Source: Treponema sp. J25 (GTDB lineage Bacteria > Spirochaetota > Spirochaetia > Treponematales > Breznakiellaceae). From it: a stretch of DNA of 64,000 nt. Of this stretch, positions 24,732 through 32,649 are shown one piece after another (positions within the stretch are counted from its first letter, which is position 1; each line of letters starts with the position of its first letter). A model generated the notes under the pieces. It was not told the DNA's origin and made no database searches. It saw nothing but the letters and a program-made list of their open reading frames with translations. The position numbers were made by a program, and so were the translations under genes. The DNA is taken from the NCBI RefSeq assembly GCF_004343725.1, contig NZ_PTQW01000014.1:62001-126000 (forward strand), read 5' to 3'.

Positions 24732-25091
24732 TTAAATACAACGGGTTCCACCAGAACGGAGCCCCGCTTCATAGAGCTTTCCACAGGCAATAAACATGGG
24801 CTCCCGGGTACCCGCAAGGGCTATGCCTGCATCGCGGGCCATATCTATCATGTCAGGGGTCGGTTTTTTGCCCCGGACAAACAAAATCGCCCGAATATCC
24901 ATAAGTTCCGCCGTACGAATCACCTGGGGATTCACGAGGCCTGTGAGCAATAGAACCTGCTCCTTAACAAAGGCCATCACATCACTCATGAGGTCCGCCC
25001 CACAGGCGGCCCGTAATTCTATCGAATCGGCGAGTTCATCGCCCCAAAAAAAGGTCCCCTCGACAATGGACACCGCTTCTTTAAACGTCAT
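24732..25091 (-). CDS. DRTGG-domain protein
   Basis: 119 residues from ATG 25091, which has GCAGGAG upstream; a GTG at 25124 is in frame but less likely. A stand-alone DRTGG-type domain: VSIVEGTFFWGDEL, ACGADLMSDVMAFVKEQVLL, LTGLVNPQVIRTAELMDI and ILFVRGKKPTPDMID follow the pattern of small DRTGG proteins often found near hydrogenase or sensor modules. Cytoplasmic; no enzymatic activity known. It lies directly upstream of the cyclo-ligase gene and is divergent from the exopolysaccharide locus. Confidence 0.8.
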   Translation of the reverse strand: MTFKEAVSIVEGTFFWGDELADSIELRAACGADLMSDVMAFVKEQVLLLTGLVNPQVIRTAELMDIRAILFVRGKKPTPDMIDMARDAGIALAGTREPMFIACGKLYEAGLRSGGTRCI

Positions 25092-25149
25092 GGTACTAAT
25101 TACTCCTGCTTCATAGCTTACCACAGGGAAAGCACAAAGGAAATACGGT

Positions 25150-25185: not shown

Positions 25186-25992
25186 ATGTTGCGTCGTTTC
25201 TTTTTTATAGTAACCCTAGGAAGCCTTATTGCGATCACCGCGATGGCCCAGAATCCCTATCGGCTGTATTCATTTTTCTCTTTTGATATCGCACCGGCCG
25301 ATGCTACGTCGTATTTTACAACGGACCAGTCTTTTTCATTTCCCCTCCTATCCAATCTTTCGCTGGTTGCCGCAGGGGAATGGAAAAGTCCTTTAAGTGA
25401 GGCCTTCTTTACAGCCCCCTCCCGTTTTGGACTCCGGGGCGGAGCGGTGTATGTTTTCCCCGATACGGGAATCTACATCGATGGCCTTATAGGATGGATC
25501 CGGTACAATAAGCAAGACCTGCTTTCGCAGAACACCTTCTCCACCGATAGTATTTTCTACGAACTCGGCTTTAACTGGGAAACCTCCTACCTTTACGTGG
25601 GAATCCGTGAACGGCTTTTAACATCTCCTCATTCAATAACTTCTATCTCCCATCTCCTTATTCAATGGTATCCGTTAGAATACTGGACCGTGTCGTTGGG
25701 AGGAAGCCTGGGAATAGAAAACGATGTGCCCCTTACGCCGGGGGTGCGGGGAGAGGTTATCGTGCCCTTGTTGAAAGAACCTTTGATACTTCGAATAGGT
25801 CCTGGAATCATCTTTGAACGCTTCTACGATGAGGAAGCACCCATAGTGGATGGACAAGAGCTTATCCTGCAGGGAAGTCTGTTTATTCAATTCCCCCGCT
25901 GGCCCCAATTCAAGATTACCCTTGGTACCCATTACGGTGATAGGAATAAAGATGTCCTGACCCTTCAATTGTTGATAACAAGCCTTTTCTAG
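25186..25992 (+). CDS. Predicted outer-membrane beta-barrel protein of the exopolysaccharide locus
   Basis: 268 residues. Signal peptide MLRRFFFIVTLGSLIAITAM, cleavage near AMA-QN. The rest alternates polar and hydrophobic residues in short strands ending in aromatic residues (SLVAAGEW, GAVYVFPDTGIYIDGLIGWI, FYELGFNWETSYLYVGIR) and closes with a terminal Phe (LLITSLF), the pattern of outer-membrane barrels. No family is recognised. It heads a run of four same-strand genes with gaps of 2-11 nt: GH16-like lipoprotein, GGDEF/receiver protein, and GT2 synthase. By analogy with PgaA, BcsC or AlgE it may be the export channel; that is inference. Confidence 0.65.
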   Translation: MLRRFFFIVTLGSLIAITAMAQNPYRLYSFFSFDIAPADATSYFTTDQSFSFPLLSNLSLVAAGEWKSPLSEAFFTAPSRFGLRGGAVYVFPDTGIYIDGLIGWIRYNKQDLLSQNTFSTDSIFYELGFNWETSYLYVGIRERLLTSPHSITSISHLLIQWYPLEYWTVSLGGSLGIENDVPLTPGVRGEVIVPLLKEPLILRIGPGIIFERFYDEEAPIVDGQELILQGSLFIQFPRWPQFKITLGTHYGDRNKDVLTLQLLITSLF

Positions 25993-25994
25993 CC

Positions 25995-26762
25995 ATGGTT
26001 CCACGGGTTTTAGTTCTTTTTTTGTCCCTGGGGATGATGGCCTGTACTTCCGTAAATTCGACGGTAGCGATAGATCCCTCTTACTCTGCTCCCTTTCGCT
26101 GGTCCGGGTATTCCTGGAGGGTTAAGTACAGCGATACCCCGACGGCTCCGCGGGATAATCGCTTTGGACGACTGGGAACCACGGTGTTCATCGATACTTC
26201 AAGTGGGGACCTGGTGCTCAAAATCCAGAAAATTGATTCCCTGTGGTATGCGTCAGAGGTAGTCCTTACCCGTTCCTTAGGCTATGGGGAATACCAATTT
26301 CGAATCGCAAGTAATATTGACCAGCTTGACCACCGGGCAGTACTGGGACTTTTTACCTGGGATCCCACCTTCTCCGATCCTTACCACCGGGAAATAGACA
26401 TTGAGTTCTCCCGCTGGGGAGATAAAAACGCATCCACCAATGCCCAATACGTGGTGCAGCCCTTTGAAGTTCCCGGCAATCGGCATAGCTTTGTCTTTTC
26501 TTTATCCGATGGGACCTATTCTACCCATAGCATCCGCTGGGACCCCCACGCAATTCGTTTTACAAGCTGGCATGGACATGGGGAGCGTCCTCCAGATAAT
26601 AGCCCCCTCATCATGCAGGATTGGACCTACCAGGGGACATACATACCCCAGCCAGGAAACGAACAGATTCGAATAAACCTCTATTTGCTTGACAGTAGCG
26701 ATGTTCCAGCCGATGCTATAGAAGTACGAGTCAGTTCCTTTACCTATATACCTTTACCTTAA
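25995..26762 (+). CDS. GH16-like glycoside hydrolase lipoprotein
   Basis: 255 residues. Lipoprotein signal peptide with lipobox GMMAC (Cys17), so anchored to a membrane after export. The mature part is a beta-jellyroll of GH16 type: GYGEYQFRI, LGLFTWDP, and the catalytic motif REIDIEFSRWG (about residues 131-141), matching E-x-D-x-E with both glutamates. YSTHSIRWDPHAIRFTSWHG is the usual later strand pair. GH16 enzymes cut beta-1,3/1,4-glucans or galactans. It starts 2 nt after the barrel gene and lacks its own Shine-Dalgarno sequence, suggesting coupled translation. Probably trims or releases the polymer made by the locus. Confidence 0.75.
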   Translation: MVPRVLVLFLSLGMMACTSVNSTVAIDPSYSAPFRWSGYSWRVKYSDTPTAPRDNRFGRLGTTVFIDTSSGDLVLKIQKIDSLWYASEVVLTRSLGYGEYQFRIASNIDQLDHRAVLGLFTWDPTFSDPYHREIDIEFSRWGDKNASTNAQYVVQPFEVPGNRHSFVFSLSDGTYSTHSIRWDPHAIRFTSWHGHGERPPDNSPLIMQDWTYQGTYIPQPGNEQIRINLYLLDSSDVPADAIEVRVSSFTYIPLP

Positions 26763-26773
26763 TAAAGAAAACA

Positions 26774-27787
26774 ATGTCGGTGCACAAGGATACGTATAAC
26801 GAGACAGAGGAACTAAAAAAACAAATCGAGACTCTTGAACGGGTGAATGAAGCCCTCATGGAGTCTATCAAACTCCTGGAAGAGAAGGTGATTCATTGCC
26901 CCCTTACGGGCCTGTATAACGAGGAATTCTTTCAACGATATATTCAAGATATTTTAAATGCCTGTCTTTCCACTAAAAGAAATGGAACTTTGCTCTTTAT
27001 TTCCATAGACCATTTTGGGGAAATTAATCTTCACTATGGATCCGATGCGGCGGACGAAACATTAAAAAAATATGCGGCCTATCTTACCAATCAGGTCCCA
27101 CAGGGAAGCATCCTTTTTCGTTTAAATGGGGCCCTCTTTGCCTGCTATATCCCTGACATGGTCCGGGAGGGTGCCCTGGAAATAGCAGAAAAAATTAGAA
27201 CGGCCACCGCCTCGGCAGATATTTTTGTATGCTATATTACCGTTTCCATTGGGGTAATTCTTCTGGATGAACTTTTTATATATGAAGATTTAAACCCAGA
27301 AGCCCTTGTCGATTTTGTTATTGACGCGGGGAAACAGCGACTGAACATAGCAAAAAAACGGGGGTCTAATCAGGTCTGTGCTGAAAGTGATCTTAAAATA
27401 ACAGAAAAGTCAAAGGCGGTTATCTTGCTTGCCGATGCCAACACATTCCGACTCGAGATGCTTGCGGATCTCTTAGAAAGCGAGCAATTCTCCATCCTAA
27501 AAGCCCATAGTGGAGATGAAGCGCTATCATTAATCATCAACAACGAGTTAGATCTTATCCTGGCAGATCTTTCCTTACCAGGAATGAATGCTATAGAAAT
27601 AAAACAACAAATAAACCACTACTCCCGATTGGTAGGGATTCCCTTTGTACTCATCACCGATAAAAAACGGGTTGAAATTTTAAAACAGGCCTATGCCCAG
27701 GGAATACTCATCGTCCTGGAACGGCCCCTCTTTCTCGAAGAACTTCTTGCTATTGTTTCGAATTTCAGTAAAACCAAGGTGGTGTAA
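26774..27787 (+). CDS. Degenerate GGDEF domain fused to a response-regulator receiver domain
   Basis: 337 residues. An N-terminal coiled coil (about residues 8-38) leads into a GGDEF-like domain beginning CPLTGLYNEEFF. At the signature the sequence is FRLNGALFACYIP (about residue 115) instead of (R)GGDEF, so diguanylate cyclase activity is unlikely. A receiver-like domain follows (about residues 216-337): AVILLADAN, LDLILADLSLPGMN with the phospho-acceptor Asp at about 268, FVLITDKK, and ERPLF where KPF is usual, so the conserved Lys is replaced by Arg. Cytoplasmic. Placed 2 nt before the synthase gene, it is probably its regulator. Confidence 0.85.
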   Translation: MSVHKDTYNETEELKKQIETLERVNEALMESIKLLEEKVIHCPLTGLYNEEFFQRYIQDILNACLSTKRNGTLLFISIDHFGEINLHYGSDAADETLKKYAAYLTNQVPQGSILFRLNGALFACYIPDMVREGALEIAEKIRTATASADIFVCYITVSIGVILLDELFIYEDLNPEALVDFVIDAGKQRLNIAKKRGSNQVCAESDLKITEKSKAVILLADANTFRLEMLADLLESEQFSILKAHSGDEALSLIINNELDLILADLSLPGMNAIEIKQQINHYSRLVGIPFVLITDKKRVEILKQAYAQGILIVLERPLFLEELLAIVSNFSKTKVV

Positions 27788-27789
27788 CA

Positions 27790-30633
27790 ATGGCAGAAAC
27801 ACTAGGATTTTTTTTCGGGATTTCCCTGGTTTTTGCTTTCATAATTCTTCTGCTTAGTAAATTGAGAACCCGTAAAGAACTAAGAACAATACAAAAAATA
27901 AGAGAGGCATTCAAGAAATATATAAAAGAGGGAATAACTCCAGACCCATTTCAGTTCCCCATTGAGATATTTTTGCGAGAAGTAGTGCGTATTAATGAAG
28001 AAATTCAACTTGATGCTGCTTATTTTGACTATCTGTATAACCGGCTGGGTAAAAAGTGGATGACCCGTTTACAAAAAACATTAAAAAATACAAAACCATA
28101 CAAACGAATTGAAGCGGCTATTTTCCTCAGTCTTTTTACCAGAGAAGAAAACATCGTTGCCATTGGGAATCAGCTTCAACATGAGAAGATTCCTTATGTA
28201 CAATTACAGCTTGCCTATTCTTTAGTTCAGCTTAAGGCAACTTCCTATATACCAACAATTATTGCGCTTATGAAAAACAAAGAAGAATGGCTTTCCTACC
28301 GGATTGCAGAAATTCTTTTAGGTTTTGGCCAGAGTCTTGAAGGGTATCTTCTTGAACAATGCCGAACAAAACCACTCCTTTCAAAAGAAGAGATCATCCT
28401 TCTTTGTGTTTTTCTCAGGCGTTTTCCGCAACCTGAGTTATTGGAACACCTGGTGTTACTTTTAAATAGCTCCTTTTCAGCGAGCCTTATAGTAGGCGAA
28501 GTACTTTTACAGCATTATCCCTATATTCTTTGCGATAATATGTATTTACAACACCCTAATCACGTAATCCGTTCTCTTGCTTATGAAGCACTTGGAACAA
28601 GAGATAATCTTAAAACACTGTTTCATCTTATTAAAGTATCGGGAGATCCCTATATTACCGATGGAGTAACCAGGGGATTACAAAAACTTATATCAAAAAA
28701 TAAAAAACATTTAGAACTTCTGTATACTACCTTTAACCGTTTTTATAGAAAATCCGAATCTCTAAAAAACAAGAATTCATTGCATCGCACTTTTACAACA
28801 CTCGGAAAAGTATTACTCCCTGAATTGGAGTATTTTTTGTACGGAGGTTACGACCTAGAAGGATTGCTTTACTATGCATGCGAGTCAGAACAGCTCAGCG
28901 TACTTTCTTCGTTTTTAGATACAAACAAGAATCCTAAATATGAAGAACAAATACTACATACTATTAAAGAAATCCTGAAAAAAAATCCAGACTTCTTACA
29001 GATTATACAAAAACATTGTACCAATACTGAGTTACTTAAAAAGTTAGGGCTTGAAAAACTACCGGAACAATCTCGAGAACCTCCGCTCAAGCTGAGTAAA
29101 AGAGCTCGCTTGGTGCTTTTTATTCTGGGCATTGCCCTATTAACCGTTCCTTTTATAAGTTGGGCTTCTCTTTTCTTTACCCATTCATTCGAGATACAGA
29201 AGGCAAGCCAACTTTTTATTGAGAACTTTACCCGTGCAATGACCGGGTACTTCCTTATTCTCAACAGCATTTACCTTTTTCTGGTGCTTCTTTCCGGTAT
29301 GAACATACAACGGCAATATAAAAACTGGCAGAGTATCCGTTCTAGTTTTCTCAGCCTGGAAAACATGTTACCTTCCGTGTCTATTCTTGCCCCAGCATTT
29401 AAAGAAGAACTAACCATTGTTGATAGTGTTCGTTCTTTACTTTCCCTTAATTATCCCAAATTCGAAGTCATTGTTATTTGCGATGGCTCCCCTGATAGAA
29501 CCTTACAAAAACTGATTACCGCTTTTAATTTAGAACGGATTGAACGGGAAGCCATTACCGCTATACCGACCCGTCCCATCCGAGGCTTTTACGGAAGCAA
29601 GCAATATCCCTATCTCCTGGTAATCGATAAATTAAACGGAGGCAAAGCGGATAGTTTAAATGCGGGCATCAATTACGCTAAAAATGATTACCTCTGCTGT
29701 ATTGATGCGGACTCGCTCCTCGAAAAAGATGCGTTACTCCGCATGATGCATCATATCATCAGCGCAGAAAAGGAAGTTCTCGCCTGTGGGGGAAACATTC
29801 TTCCCGTTAATGGCTGCAAGGTCCAGAGTGGGGCTATTAAAGAAATTCATATACCAAACAAGCTTCTGTCCCGTTTCCAAACTATAGAGTACCTCCGGGC
29901 TTTTCTCACCGGTCGTTTGGGCTGGGCCATGCTCGATGCCCTGGTAATCATTTCGGGAGCCTTTGGGGTATTTAGCCGAAAACGGGTATTGGAAATAAAC
30001 GGATATCTTACAGGCTCCGCTTCCGGTAAGATGGATACGGTGGGGGAAGACATGGAACTGGTGGTTCGGCTGAGGCGCCATGCCCGTGAAAACAAGATAC
30101 CCGCTACCGTAAGTTATTGTTACAACGCTAACTGCTGGACTGAGGTTCCCGAGGACTGGGGAAGTTTTTCTCGACAACGGGATCGCTGGCACCGGGGATT
30201 GCTGGAAATTCTTACCTTTCACTGGAAATGTCTTGGCCGTCCCCGTTATGGGGCGATGGGGCTTCTGGCCCTTCCCTACTTTTGGATTTTCGAGTGCATC
30301 GGTCCTTTTTTTGAGCTTTTTAGTCTGGTCACCGTGCTTATAGGGCTGGTCACTGGTTTCTTATCCTTTAAAGCCTTTAGTATCTTTTTCTCAGCTTCGG
30401 TTCTTTTGGGAACCACAATTTCAGTGATTTCTCTTGTTTTTACTGAAGCGCGAATTGCAACTATTCCTCTTCGGGAAACTCTACTATTGTTGTTATTTAC
30501 CTTATTTGAAAATTTTGGCTACCGCCAACTGGTGGCAATTAAAAGAGTTCCTGCGTACTTTAAGCTTCTAATTGGCAAATCAGGATGGGGAGCTATTAAA
30601 CGAAGGGGATTCACTCCAAGCACTAAGAACTAA
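27790..30633 (+). CDS. HEAT-repeat / family 2 glycosyltransferase fusion, processive polysaccharide synthase
   Basis: 947 residues. One membrane helix (about 3-22), a soluble region with HEAT-like helical repeats (about 90-430, e.g. IEAAIFLSLFTREENIVAI, AYSLVQLKATSYIPTI), two membrane helices (about 440-505), then a GT2 domain: VSILAPAFKEEL (about 529), ICDGSPDRT, KLNGGKADSLNAGI, DADS (about 638), GEDMEL (about 752) and QRDRW (about 795), the Q/RxxRW motif of processive synthases. Several C-terminal helices follow. This is the pattern of BcsA, NodC or HasA, but no PilZ domain is visible. AAGGTGG precedes the ATG. Last gene of the locus; polymer unknown, perhaps a beta-glucan given the GH16 partner. 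Confidence 0.88.
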   Translation: MAETLGFFFGISLVFAFIILLLSKLRTRKELRTIQKIREAFKKYIKEGITPDPFQFPIEIFLREVVRINEEIQLDAAYFDYLYNRLGKKWMTRLQKTLKNTKPYKRIEAAIFLSLFTREENIVAIGNQLQHEKIPYVQLQLAYSLVQLKATSYIPTIIALMKNKEEWLSYRIAEILLGFGQSLEGYLLEQCRTKPLLSKEEIILLCVFLRRFPQPELLEHLVLLLNSSFSASLIVGEVLLQHYPYILCDNMYLQHPNHVIRSLAYEALGTRDNLKTLFHLIKVSGDPYITDGVTRGLQKLISKNKKHLELLYTTFNRFYRKSESLKNKNSLHRTFTTLGKVLLPELEYFLYGGYDLEGLLYYACESEQLSVLSSFLDTNKNPKYEEQILHTIKEILKKNPDFLQIIQKHCTNTELLKKLGLEKLPEQSREPPLKLSKRARLVLFILGIALLTVPFISWASLFFTHSFEIQKASQLFIENFTRAMTGYFLILNSIYLFLVLLSGMNIQRQYKNWQSIRSSFLSLENMLPSVSILAPAFKEELTIVDSVRSLLSLNYPKFEVIVICDGSPDRTLQKLITAFNLERIEREAITAIPTRPIRGFYGSKQYPYLLVIDKLNGGKADSLNAGINYAKNDYLCCIDADSLLEKDALLRMMHHIISAEKEVLACGGNILPVNGCKVQSGAIKEIHIPNKLLSRFQTIEYLRAFLTGRLGWAMLDALVIISGAFGVFSRKRVLEINGYLTGSASGKMDTVGEDMELVVRLRRHARENKIPATVSYCYNANCWTEVPEDWGSFSRQRDRWHRGLLEILTFHWKCLGRPRYGAMGLLALPYFWIFECIGPFFELFSLVTVLIGLVTGFLSFKAFSIFFSASVLLGTTISVISLVFTEARIATIPLRETLLLLLFTLFENFGYRQLVAIKRVPAYFKLLIGKSGWGAIKRRGFTPSTKN

Positions 30634-31066: not shown

Positions 31067-32362
31067 CTAGCGCCGGCTTTTCTGCAGGCTTTTAGCAAAT
31101 TTGGAGATCTGCTTCCAGCGGGCCTTTTCCGCCCGCAGGGCCTGGTCATCGAGCCGGCGGTCCAGCCAGGCCTGTTCCCGCTTAAGCTGCAGGTAGGAGC
31201 GGTAACGGCCCTCATCTAACTCACCAGAAGCCAGGGCAGCCTGGACCGCGCAGCCCGGCTCGCCTTCATGGCTGCAATCGGAGAAACGGCATTGGTCCGC
31301 TAGGCAGGCAATATCGGAAAAGCTCGCGGCCAGGTCATCCCCATCGGCCCATAGCTTTAATTCCCGGATTCCGGGACTATCAATGATGAGAAGCCCTGAC
31401 GAAAGCCGGTAGAGCCGGCTTGAGGTAGTGGTATGCCGGCCCTTCCGGTCCGATTCCCGAACAGCCCCTTCCCGGGGTGCGGCTTCTTCGTCCAAGGGGC
31501 CTGTGCAGCCCAGGCCGGCCTCCGGGGTGCCCCAGGGCAGTTCTTCCATTGACGAGATGATCGCGCTGTCACCCCCCAAAGGTGCCGCCGCCAGAGGGGT
31601 GCCAGCCAAAGATGTGCCTGCCAAAGGGGCCGCAGCCAGAGGAGCGCCCGTAACAGAGCCTAAGGCCCCGATCAGGGCAGACTTCCCTACCCCGCTTTTA
31701 CCAAGCACGCCCAGGGTTTCTCCGGCAGAGAAGTAACGGCTCAATTCTTCTAAGCCCTCTCCGGTTTTCGCACTGACCGCAACTACAGGACTCCCCGGAG
31801 CGGCCAGAGCAGCGGTAGCTAAAGCGTTCCGGCGCGTTTCAGCATCCGCCAGGTCCGCCTTATTAAGGACTATACAGACCCCGCAGCCAGCGCTTCGGGC
31901 AACCACGAGGGCCCGCTCAAGAAAGGTACGGAGAAAATTTCGGCCCCCGTCCAGGGCAAACACAAGGAGCAGCGTATCGATGTTGGCCGCCAGCACCTGT
32001 TCTTCCGTTTTATCCCCCGCCGCACCTCTGCTTAAAGCTGTTTGCCGAGGGAGCACCCGGTGGATCCGTAGGCCGTCTTCCTCAGGGTCGAGCAGCACCC
32101 AGTCTCCGGTAACAGGGTAATCAGCCCCGCCTGTGGTCCGGAACGCAAAAGCACCGCTTACCCGTATGTTGCGGTACAGACCCGCCGTACAAGCAGACGC
32201 GAGCATCAGATTTTCATCAATATAATGGGGTACAACCACATCATATTGATGATATTCCCGCCGGATAATGCGGCCGGGAATGTATTTTCTACCATCTTCC
32301 TGGCATGCGGATTGCCAGAAGCCGTGAAATATACCCTTCCACCCCCAGGTTTCAGGATTCAT
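31067..32362 (-). CDS. rsgA: Ribosome small-subunit-dependent GTPase A with a repeat-built insertion
   Basis: 431 residues from ATG 32362 (longer in-frame readings run into non-coding sequence). RsgA is a circularly permuted GTPase in 30S maturation. An N-terminal OB-fold region (TGDWVLLDPEEDGLRIHRVLPR) precedes G4 NKADL, G5 SAKTG, G1 GKSGVGKSALIGALG, G2 GRHTTT and G3 DSPGI, then the zinc site CLADQCRFSDCSHEGEPGC. Between G1 and G2 about 65 residues occur where roughly 15-20 are usual; the extra part includes five (G/A)(A/T)(P/S)LA units. No Shine-Dalgarno sequence; TATACC lies 3 nt before the ATG. Gene is much richer in GC than its neighbours. Confidence 0.93.
   Translation of the reverse strand: MNPETWGWKGIFHGFWQSACQEDGRKYIPGRIIRREYHQYDVVVPHYIDENLMLASACTAGLYRNIRVSGAFAFRTTGGADYPVTGDWVLLDPEEDGLRIHRVLPRQTALSRGAAGDKTEEQVLAANIDTLLLVFALDGGRNFLRTFLERALVVARSAGCGVCIVLNKADLADAETRRNALATAALAAPGSPVVAVSAKTGEGLEELSRYFSAGETLGVLGKSGVGKSALIGALGSVTGAPLAAAPLAGTSLAGTPLAAAPLGGDSAIISSMEELPWGTPEAGLGCTGPLDEEAAPREGAVRESDRKGRHTTTSSRLYRLSSGLLIIDSPGIRELKLWADGDDLAASFSDIACLADQCRFSDCSHEGEPGCAVQAALASGELDEGRYRSYLQLKREQAWLDRRLDDQALRAEKARWKQISKFAKSLQKSRR
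31575..31649 (-). repeat. Five tandem 15-nt units inside rsgA
   Basis: Units start at 31575, 31590, 31605, 31620 and 31635; consensus on the plus strand is GCCAAAGGNGCCGCC-like. On the coding strand each encodes (G/A)(A/T)(P/S)L(A/G). The repeat stays in frame. Confidence 0.85.
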
Positions 32363-32649
32363 TGTGGTATACAATTGTGTTGGTCCTTTAGTCAATTTCA
32401 AAAAATTGATGAACGTAATTTCTGCATGACCGCTGGCATTAGGTTCGCTGCAAGTACTGCGGGAGCGACAGGCGCTCCATACACCGCGCATGCAATTCAC
32501 GGATCAAACAGAACCGAATGTAATTATTGTGGGTTAAAAAAAGCGAGAGGATGAGCGGAAAAGATAGGATTTAGAAACTAATTTTTTTAGAGCGAGCGCA
32601 AAACAGGCGCAGACAATATACAAGCAGGAAATGAGCGATAGTTCCTATC

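Follow-up and report, generated by a model that had tools for sequence, protein, structure and literature searches.

Synthase-dependent exopolysaccharide systems are recognised by a membrane GT2 with the motifs D, D, (T)ED and QxxRW, by an outer-membrane β-barrel, by a gene for a periplasmic hydrolase acting on the polymer, and by the making and secretion of a polymer. Both the cellulose system Bcs and the PNAG system Pga have a processive membrane GT2, a hydrolase and an outer-membrane channel. The NfrB-NfrA-YbcH system of Escherichia coli combines a GT2 synthase that has an extra cytosolic regulatory domain with an outer-membrane protein, and a GGDEF partner controls it locally; NfrB carries the c-di-GMP receptor MshEN and is served by the active cyclase DgcJ (PMC8669469). 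A further operon type, with a core of receiver, TPR outer-membrane barrel, HEAT protein and GT2, is widespread and little studied, and no experimental paper on it was found in the open literature. Genes for a receiver, a TPR protein, a HEAT protein and a GT2 are found in that order on plasmids of Mesorhizobium ciceri (pMESCI01) and Erythrobacter aureus, and the Mesorhizobium TPR protein is annotated as a YaiO family barrel. Deinococcus radiophilus has the TPR barrel, HEAT and GT2 genes without the receiver. Literature searches on HEAT-GT2 operons, on ODP together with GGDEF and on Sphaerochaeta exopolysaccharide gave nothing on the system treated here, and the literature found describes no spirochaete surface polymer made by a synthase-dependent gene set of this kind.

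The window, which is the whole stretch of 64,000 nucleotides from Treponema sp. J25 that was analysed, contains four genes in a tight run, all on the + strand and separated by 2, 11 and 2 nt. They encode a small β-barrel protein (25186-25992), a GH16-family protein (25995-26762), a pseudo-GGDEF-receiver protein (26774-27787) and a HEAT-GT2 synthase (27790-30633). The open reading frames thus bear out the coordinates given in the initial annotation. The neighbours on either side (24732-25124 and 31067-32500) lie on the opposite strand, so that the four genes form a closed unit. A scan for sigma-70 promoters gave a result at chance level, and a terminator scan was little above chance. The genome is 3.18 Mb, 99.9% complete, and has a single copy of the synthase.

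The locus is a real and conserved polysaccharide-synthase locus, and a variant on an already known core. The gene set had at first been thought to match nothing known, but operons with the HEAT/GT2/receiver/TPR-barrel core exist in Mesorhizobium and Erythrobacter, with a partial one in Deinococcus, and the spirochaete core is therefore not unique. The functional set is the same in these operons and in the window, and the GT2s show about 38-41% identity across the catalytic half. All three bacteria encode HEAT and GT2 separately, while the two are fused in the window, and the stand-alone receiver of Mesorhizobium and Erythrobacter lacks the GGDEF domain to which the receiver of the window is joined. 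Furthermore, the barrel of these operons has TPR, and no GH16 is annotated alongside. The window thus has HEAT and a related GT2 together with a receiver, but no match to a YaiO-type barrel. Compared with Bcs and Pga, the synthase is far under the cut-offs of both TIGR03030, the BcsA equivalog (38 of 699 bits), and TIGR03937; no match to PilZ, BcsB or PgaB is found at the locus, and the channel is without TPR. In function, NfrBA with its c-di-GMP control is a good analogue; the window has HEAT repeats and a dead GGDEF where NfrB has MshEN and an active cyclase. The mixed-linkage glucan synthase RiGT2 of Romboutsia was considered as the same system and rejected because of its C-terminal PilZ domain (PMC10374906), which is missing from the window synthase.

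The synthase has 947 amino acids and orthologues across the Spirochaetota. Its HEAT-like α-helical repeat region (28015-29043, around residues 76-418) is predicted as helix pairs with pLDDT mostly 70-90, while the Pfam match to HEAT_2 is sub-threshold. The GT2 catalytic domain (29380-30198; Pfam 7.8e-18) contains DGS at residue 565, DAD at 639, ED at 753 and QRDRW at 796-800, and the description of a HEAT-GT2 with QRDRW in the initial annotation is thus upheld. An alignment showed that the motifs D, D, ED and QRDRW are conserved in 13 relatives. When compared with PDB, the synthase profile matches alphaRep/HEAT proteins at residues 85-290, and its matches to glycosyltransferases begin at about residue 523. 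The structure model (mean pLDDT 67.5) starts with an N-terminal helix, which is followed by a long arm of helical repeats and by a GT2 domain that has membrane-type helices on both sides. Up to 374-397 residues of it align to the hyaluronan synthases of Xenopus and of a Chlorella virus (Z about 15-16), and the alignment to BcsA covers 330 residues (Z 15.3), in both cases with the membrane helices included. The retained GT2 motifs and this resemblance in the model support a membrane-embedded processive synthase with a probable polymerising activity. In the closest relative (L002:8926-11750) HEAT and GT2 are split over two overlapping frames. Their identities to the window are 37 and 67%, respectively, indicating that the HEAT arm evolves much faster.

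A strong match to the synthase is found in about 27 of 393 Spirochaetota genomes, spread over many families, but in only three of 60 genomes of the window's own family; this patchy distribution would fit either repeated loss or transfer. On a tree, the synthases that join that of the window with full support are those of G343, which belongs to another family of the same order (locus L002), and of G420 from the same family (L071). The neighbourhoods were compared by searching six-frame translations with profiles at 25 loci that have the HEAT-GT2 of this clade, the window included. The pseudo-GGDEF-receiver gene is directly 5' of the synthase in all 24 loci with 5' sequence, and 12 of the 25 have a gene of the window's GH16 family close to the synthase, in different orientations. 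Since neighbourhoods are kept in distant spirochaetes, a chance arrangement is ruled out. The strict pairing of synthase and regulator and the strong association with GH16 support the earlier reading as a synthase-dependent polysaccharide locus with a synthase, a cutting enzyme, a degenerate GGDEF-receiver regulator and a probable outer-membrane barrel. It had also been asked whether synthase homologues occur without the other three genes, and the result is mixed: the regulator is always there, GH16 accompanies about half of the synthases, and a clear small barrel is seen in no relative but the nearest.

The small barrel protein has 268 amino acids, a signal peptide and a C-terminal Phe, and is a probable outer-membrane channel. 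No Pfam or NCBIfam match was found. An AlphaFold model made from two sequences has 14 strands besides a signal helix, at the low confidence of pLDDT 46, and nearly all Foldseek matches to it are outer-membrane barrels, with low TM-scores. Against the 12-16 strand barrel that the initial annotation had named as a check, this model neither contradicts the prediction nor bears it out convincingly. A homologue with 36% identity is found in the same position in L002. Apart from these two clear cases, a small barrel is possible in L034, L047 and L050, judged from weak, truncated or frame-broken readings. A TPR barrel of the YaiO type (TIGR04390) adjoins the synthase in two of the 25 loci, L035 and L046, and in a more distant branch (L055-L059) receiver, TPR barrel, HEAT and GT2 are separate genes. 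Profile comparison did not link the small barrel itself to YaiO (probability 0.5%), and TIGR04390 is unmatched. The YaiO-family TPR barrels beside the synthase in L035, L046 and Mesorhizobium indicate that outer-membrane barrels regularly accompany it.

The GH16-family protein (255 amino acids) has a lipoprotein-like N-terminus and is a probable periplasmic or surface endo-glucanase. Alone, its Pfam GH16 score of 16.7 bits is below the cut-off of 22, and as a single sequence it has no PDB match; the best PDB matches of the family profile, at 9e-10, are lichenases (1,3-1,4-β-glucanases). The REIDIEF stretch noted initially is intact, with the catalytic motif EIDIE at 26391-26405, and E-I-D-[IV]-E is found in all 12 GH16 copies. 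By sequence, the locus thus encodes a putative periplasmic polymer-acting hydrolase. The GH16 family is divided by the motifs EXDXE and EXDXXE, and licheninases and xyloglucan enzymes are found in the EXDXE class (PMC6827312). A Phe platform at subsite -1 has been described for the lichenase FFT (PMC6827312), and the Phe of an (F/L)FT stretch preceding EXDXE in the window's family aligns with this FFT. The family shares EXDXE, this Phe and its best PDB matches with the GH16_21 licheninases, but only about 130 residues align, with remote similarity, and it is probably a separate branch.

The regulator (337 amino acids) matches GGDEF (Pfam 1.7e-20) and Response_reg (1.2e-13), confirming the degenerate GGDEF-receiver protein proposed at the outset. 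Active diguanylate cyclases have a GG[DE]EF active site; here it is replaced by NGALF (27125-27139), and the RxxD I-site before it is absent. Both motifs are gone in all 15 aligned regulators. The receiver domain (27422-27757) has kept the phospho-acceptor Asp (LADLSLPG), and the conserved Lys is replaced (ERP). This Asp is changed to Glu in 12 of the 15 regulators; the window, L002 and L004 are the exceptions that retain it, and an altered receiver is thus not common to all. The regulators of the relatives are often longer, with ODP as their first domain (Pfam 2.4e-54 in L036); this domain is strong in eight of them. The ODP ligand motifs HQDPD, YLHFP, [GS]DLFG and PQHG are intact in seven aligned regulators and degraded in others. 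The ODP domain is absent from the regulators of the window, L002 and L071. A separate ODP protein of 265 amino acids, perhaps a chemotaxis-type oxygen sensor, is encoded elsewhere in the window's genome (G000:C13:138743-139324; L064), and the domain is thus missing from the locus, not from the genome.

ODP is established as a diiron oxygen sensor in the chemotaxis of Treponema denticola (PMC7666581). The same Pfam domain and ligand motifs are found in the relatives' regulators, but there they are fused to a pseudo-GGDEF-receiver beside a synthase instead of feeding chemotaxis. As read from the sequences, a common form of the module is a sensor, a dead cyclase, an altered receiver and a synthase. 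The short form carried by the window is likely to have arisen by loss of ODP. The fusion of ODP to a dead GGDEF and a receiver in which Glu usually replaces the phospho-acceptor Asp suggests a sensor scaffold rather than a c-di-GMP synthase. It is conceivable, if somewhat doubtful, that spirochaete synthases are switched without c-di-GMP synthesis, by a dead cyclase fused to an altered receiver, and in many species also to a diiron oxygen sensor, that acts directly as a protein on the HEAT arm. Polymer output would then follow oxygen or iron, and the window would be a stripped, sensorless form. This oxygen-sensor-linked dead cyclase, as a putative regulator, would be the more original point of the locus, and it bears on the relatives more than on the window itself.

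For the window it appears probable that the locus is a synthase-dependent exopolysaccharide system that makes a β-glucan under the control of a scaffold regulator. The HEAT-GT2 would polymerise a sugar nucleotide on the cytosolic side of the inner membrane, with its own membrane helices as the path of the chain. Trimming or release of the chain, either periplasmic or at the surface, would fall to the GH16 lipoprotein, and passage across the outer membrane to the small β-barrel. The pseudo-GGDEF-receiver, predicted to be unable to make c-di-GMP, is probably a scaffold that gates the synthase by binding its cytosolic HEAT region; we infer this contact from the strict pairing of the two proteins. 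No PilZ or other c-di-GMP effector domain was found at the locus by Pfam, and the mode of regulation is thus a guess. In many relatives the diiron ODP domain of the regulator would be the input, while in the window's lineage, without ODP, the receiver with its retained Asp or a partner protein would take this role. A β-glucan with 1,4 bonds is plausible, because all GH16 copies have EXDXE and the best matches are lichenases. If this is true, the gene set would be a clear handle on a spirochaete surface polymer. It would also be a natural case of a c-di-GMP enzyme turned into a scaffold, with an oxygen-sensor domain that is present, decayed or absent according to lineage.

The sugar could instead be an amino sugar, in a PNAG- or chitin-like chain, with the GH16 acting elsewhere or with unusual specificity. 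The best NCBIfam match of the GT2 is indeed PgaC/IcaA, and polysaccharide deacetylases are found near the synthases of several relatives. However, the score of 107 bits is far under the cut-off of 422, the window locus has no deacetylase, and the GH16 family tied to the synthase is lichenase-like; an amino-sugar chain is thus judged unlikely. The degradation of plant and lichen glucans is a common role of lichenases, and the best PDB relatives of the GH16 are secreted lichenases. This would fit an enzyme that scavenges plant glucan and is beside the synthase by chance, which we hold to be quite improbable. The subfamily is rare in the phylum, being found in 10 of 296 genomes, and eight of these 10 also have a strong synthase match. 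A simple binomial with base rate 27/393, which ignores kinship, gives about 2e-8 for this; the 296 and the 393 genomes are overlapping, not identical draws. Only five of the eight co-occurring GH16 genes adjoin the synthase. The differing orientations in the 12 loci point to a functional tie and not only to a shared transcript.

The least probable alternative, and a very unlikely one, is that the GT2 is a non-polymerase decorating a lipid or a protein, with its neighbours as an envelope-modification set. Many soluble, non-processive GT2 structures match the model equally well over the catalytic core, and over that core only. The conserved QxxRW and ED motifs, the membrane helices that align with HAS and BcsA, and the endo-acting GH16 and barrel partners all argue against this reading.

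Other genes are also found beside the relatives' synthases. SpoIIE-type phosphatases in six of the 25 loci suggest another signalling input, and SpoIIE phosphatase and HATPase proteins are directly upstream of the regulator in L004:1505-3178 and L052:5908-8094. A conserved protein of about 1070 amino acids is beside the synthase in 12 loci, as in L036:13065-16286 (-), L003:11814-14984 and L048:10876-14151; it has no match in the window's genome. It has an N-terminal membrane anchor and conserved acidic and Trp motifs, and neither a Pfam match nor a meaningful PDB match was found; it gives the impression of a glycosidase-like enzyme. The record of L003 is labelled Clostridia and has the set of ODP-GGDEF-receiver, HEAT-GT2 and a 1057-aa protein, but it is nested among spirochaetes in the tree, and is either a transfer or a mis-binned contig. 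Finally, L060:5997-9485 and L061:5221-8559 are spirochaete single-chain fusions of GH18, polysaccharide deacetylase and GT2.
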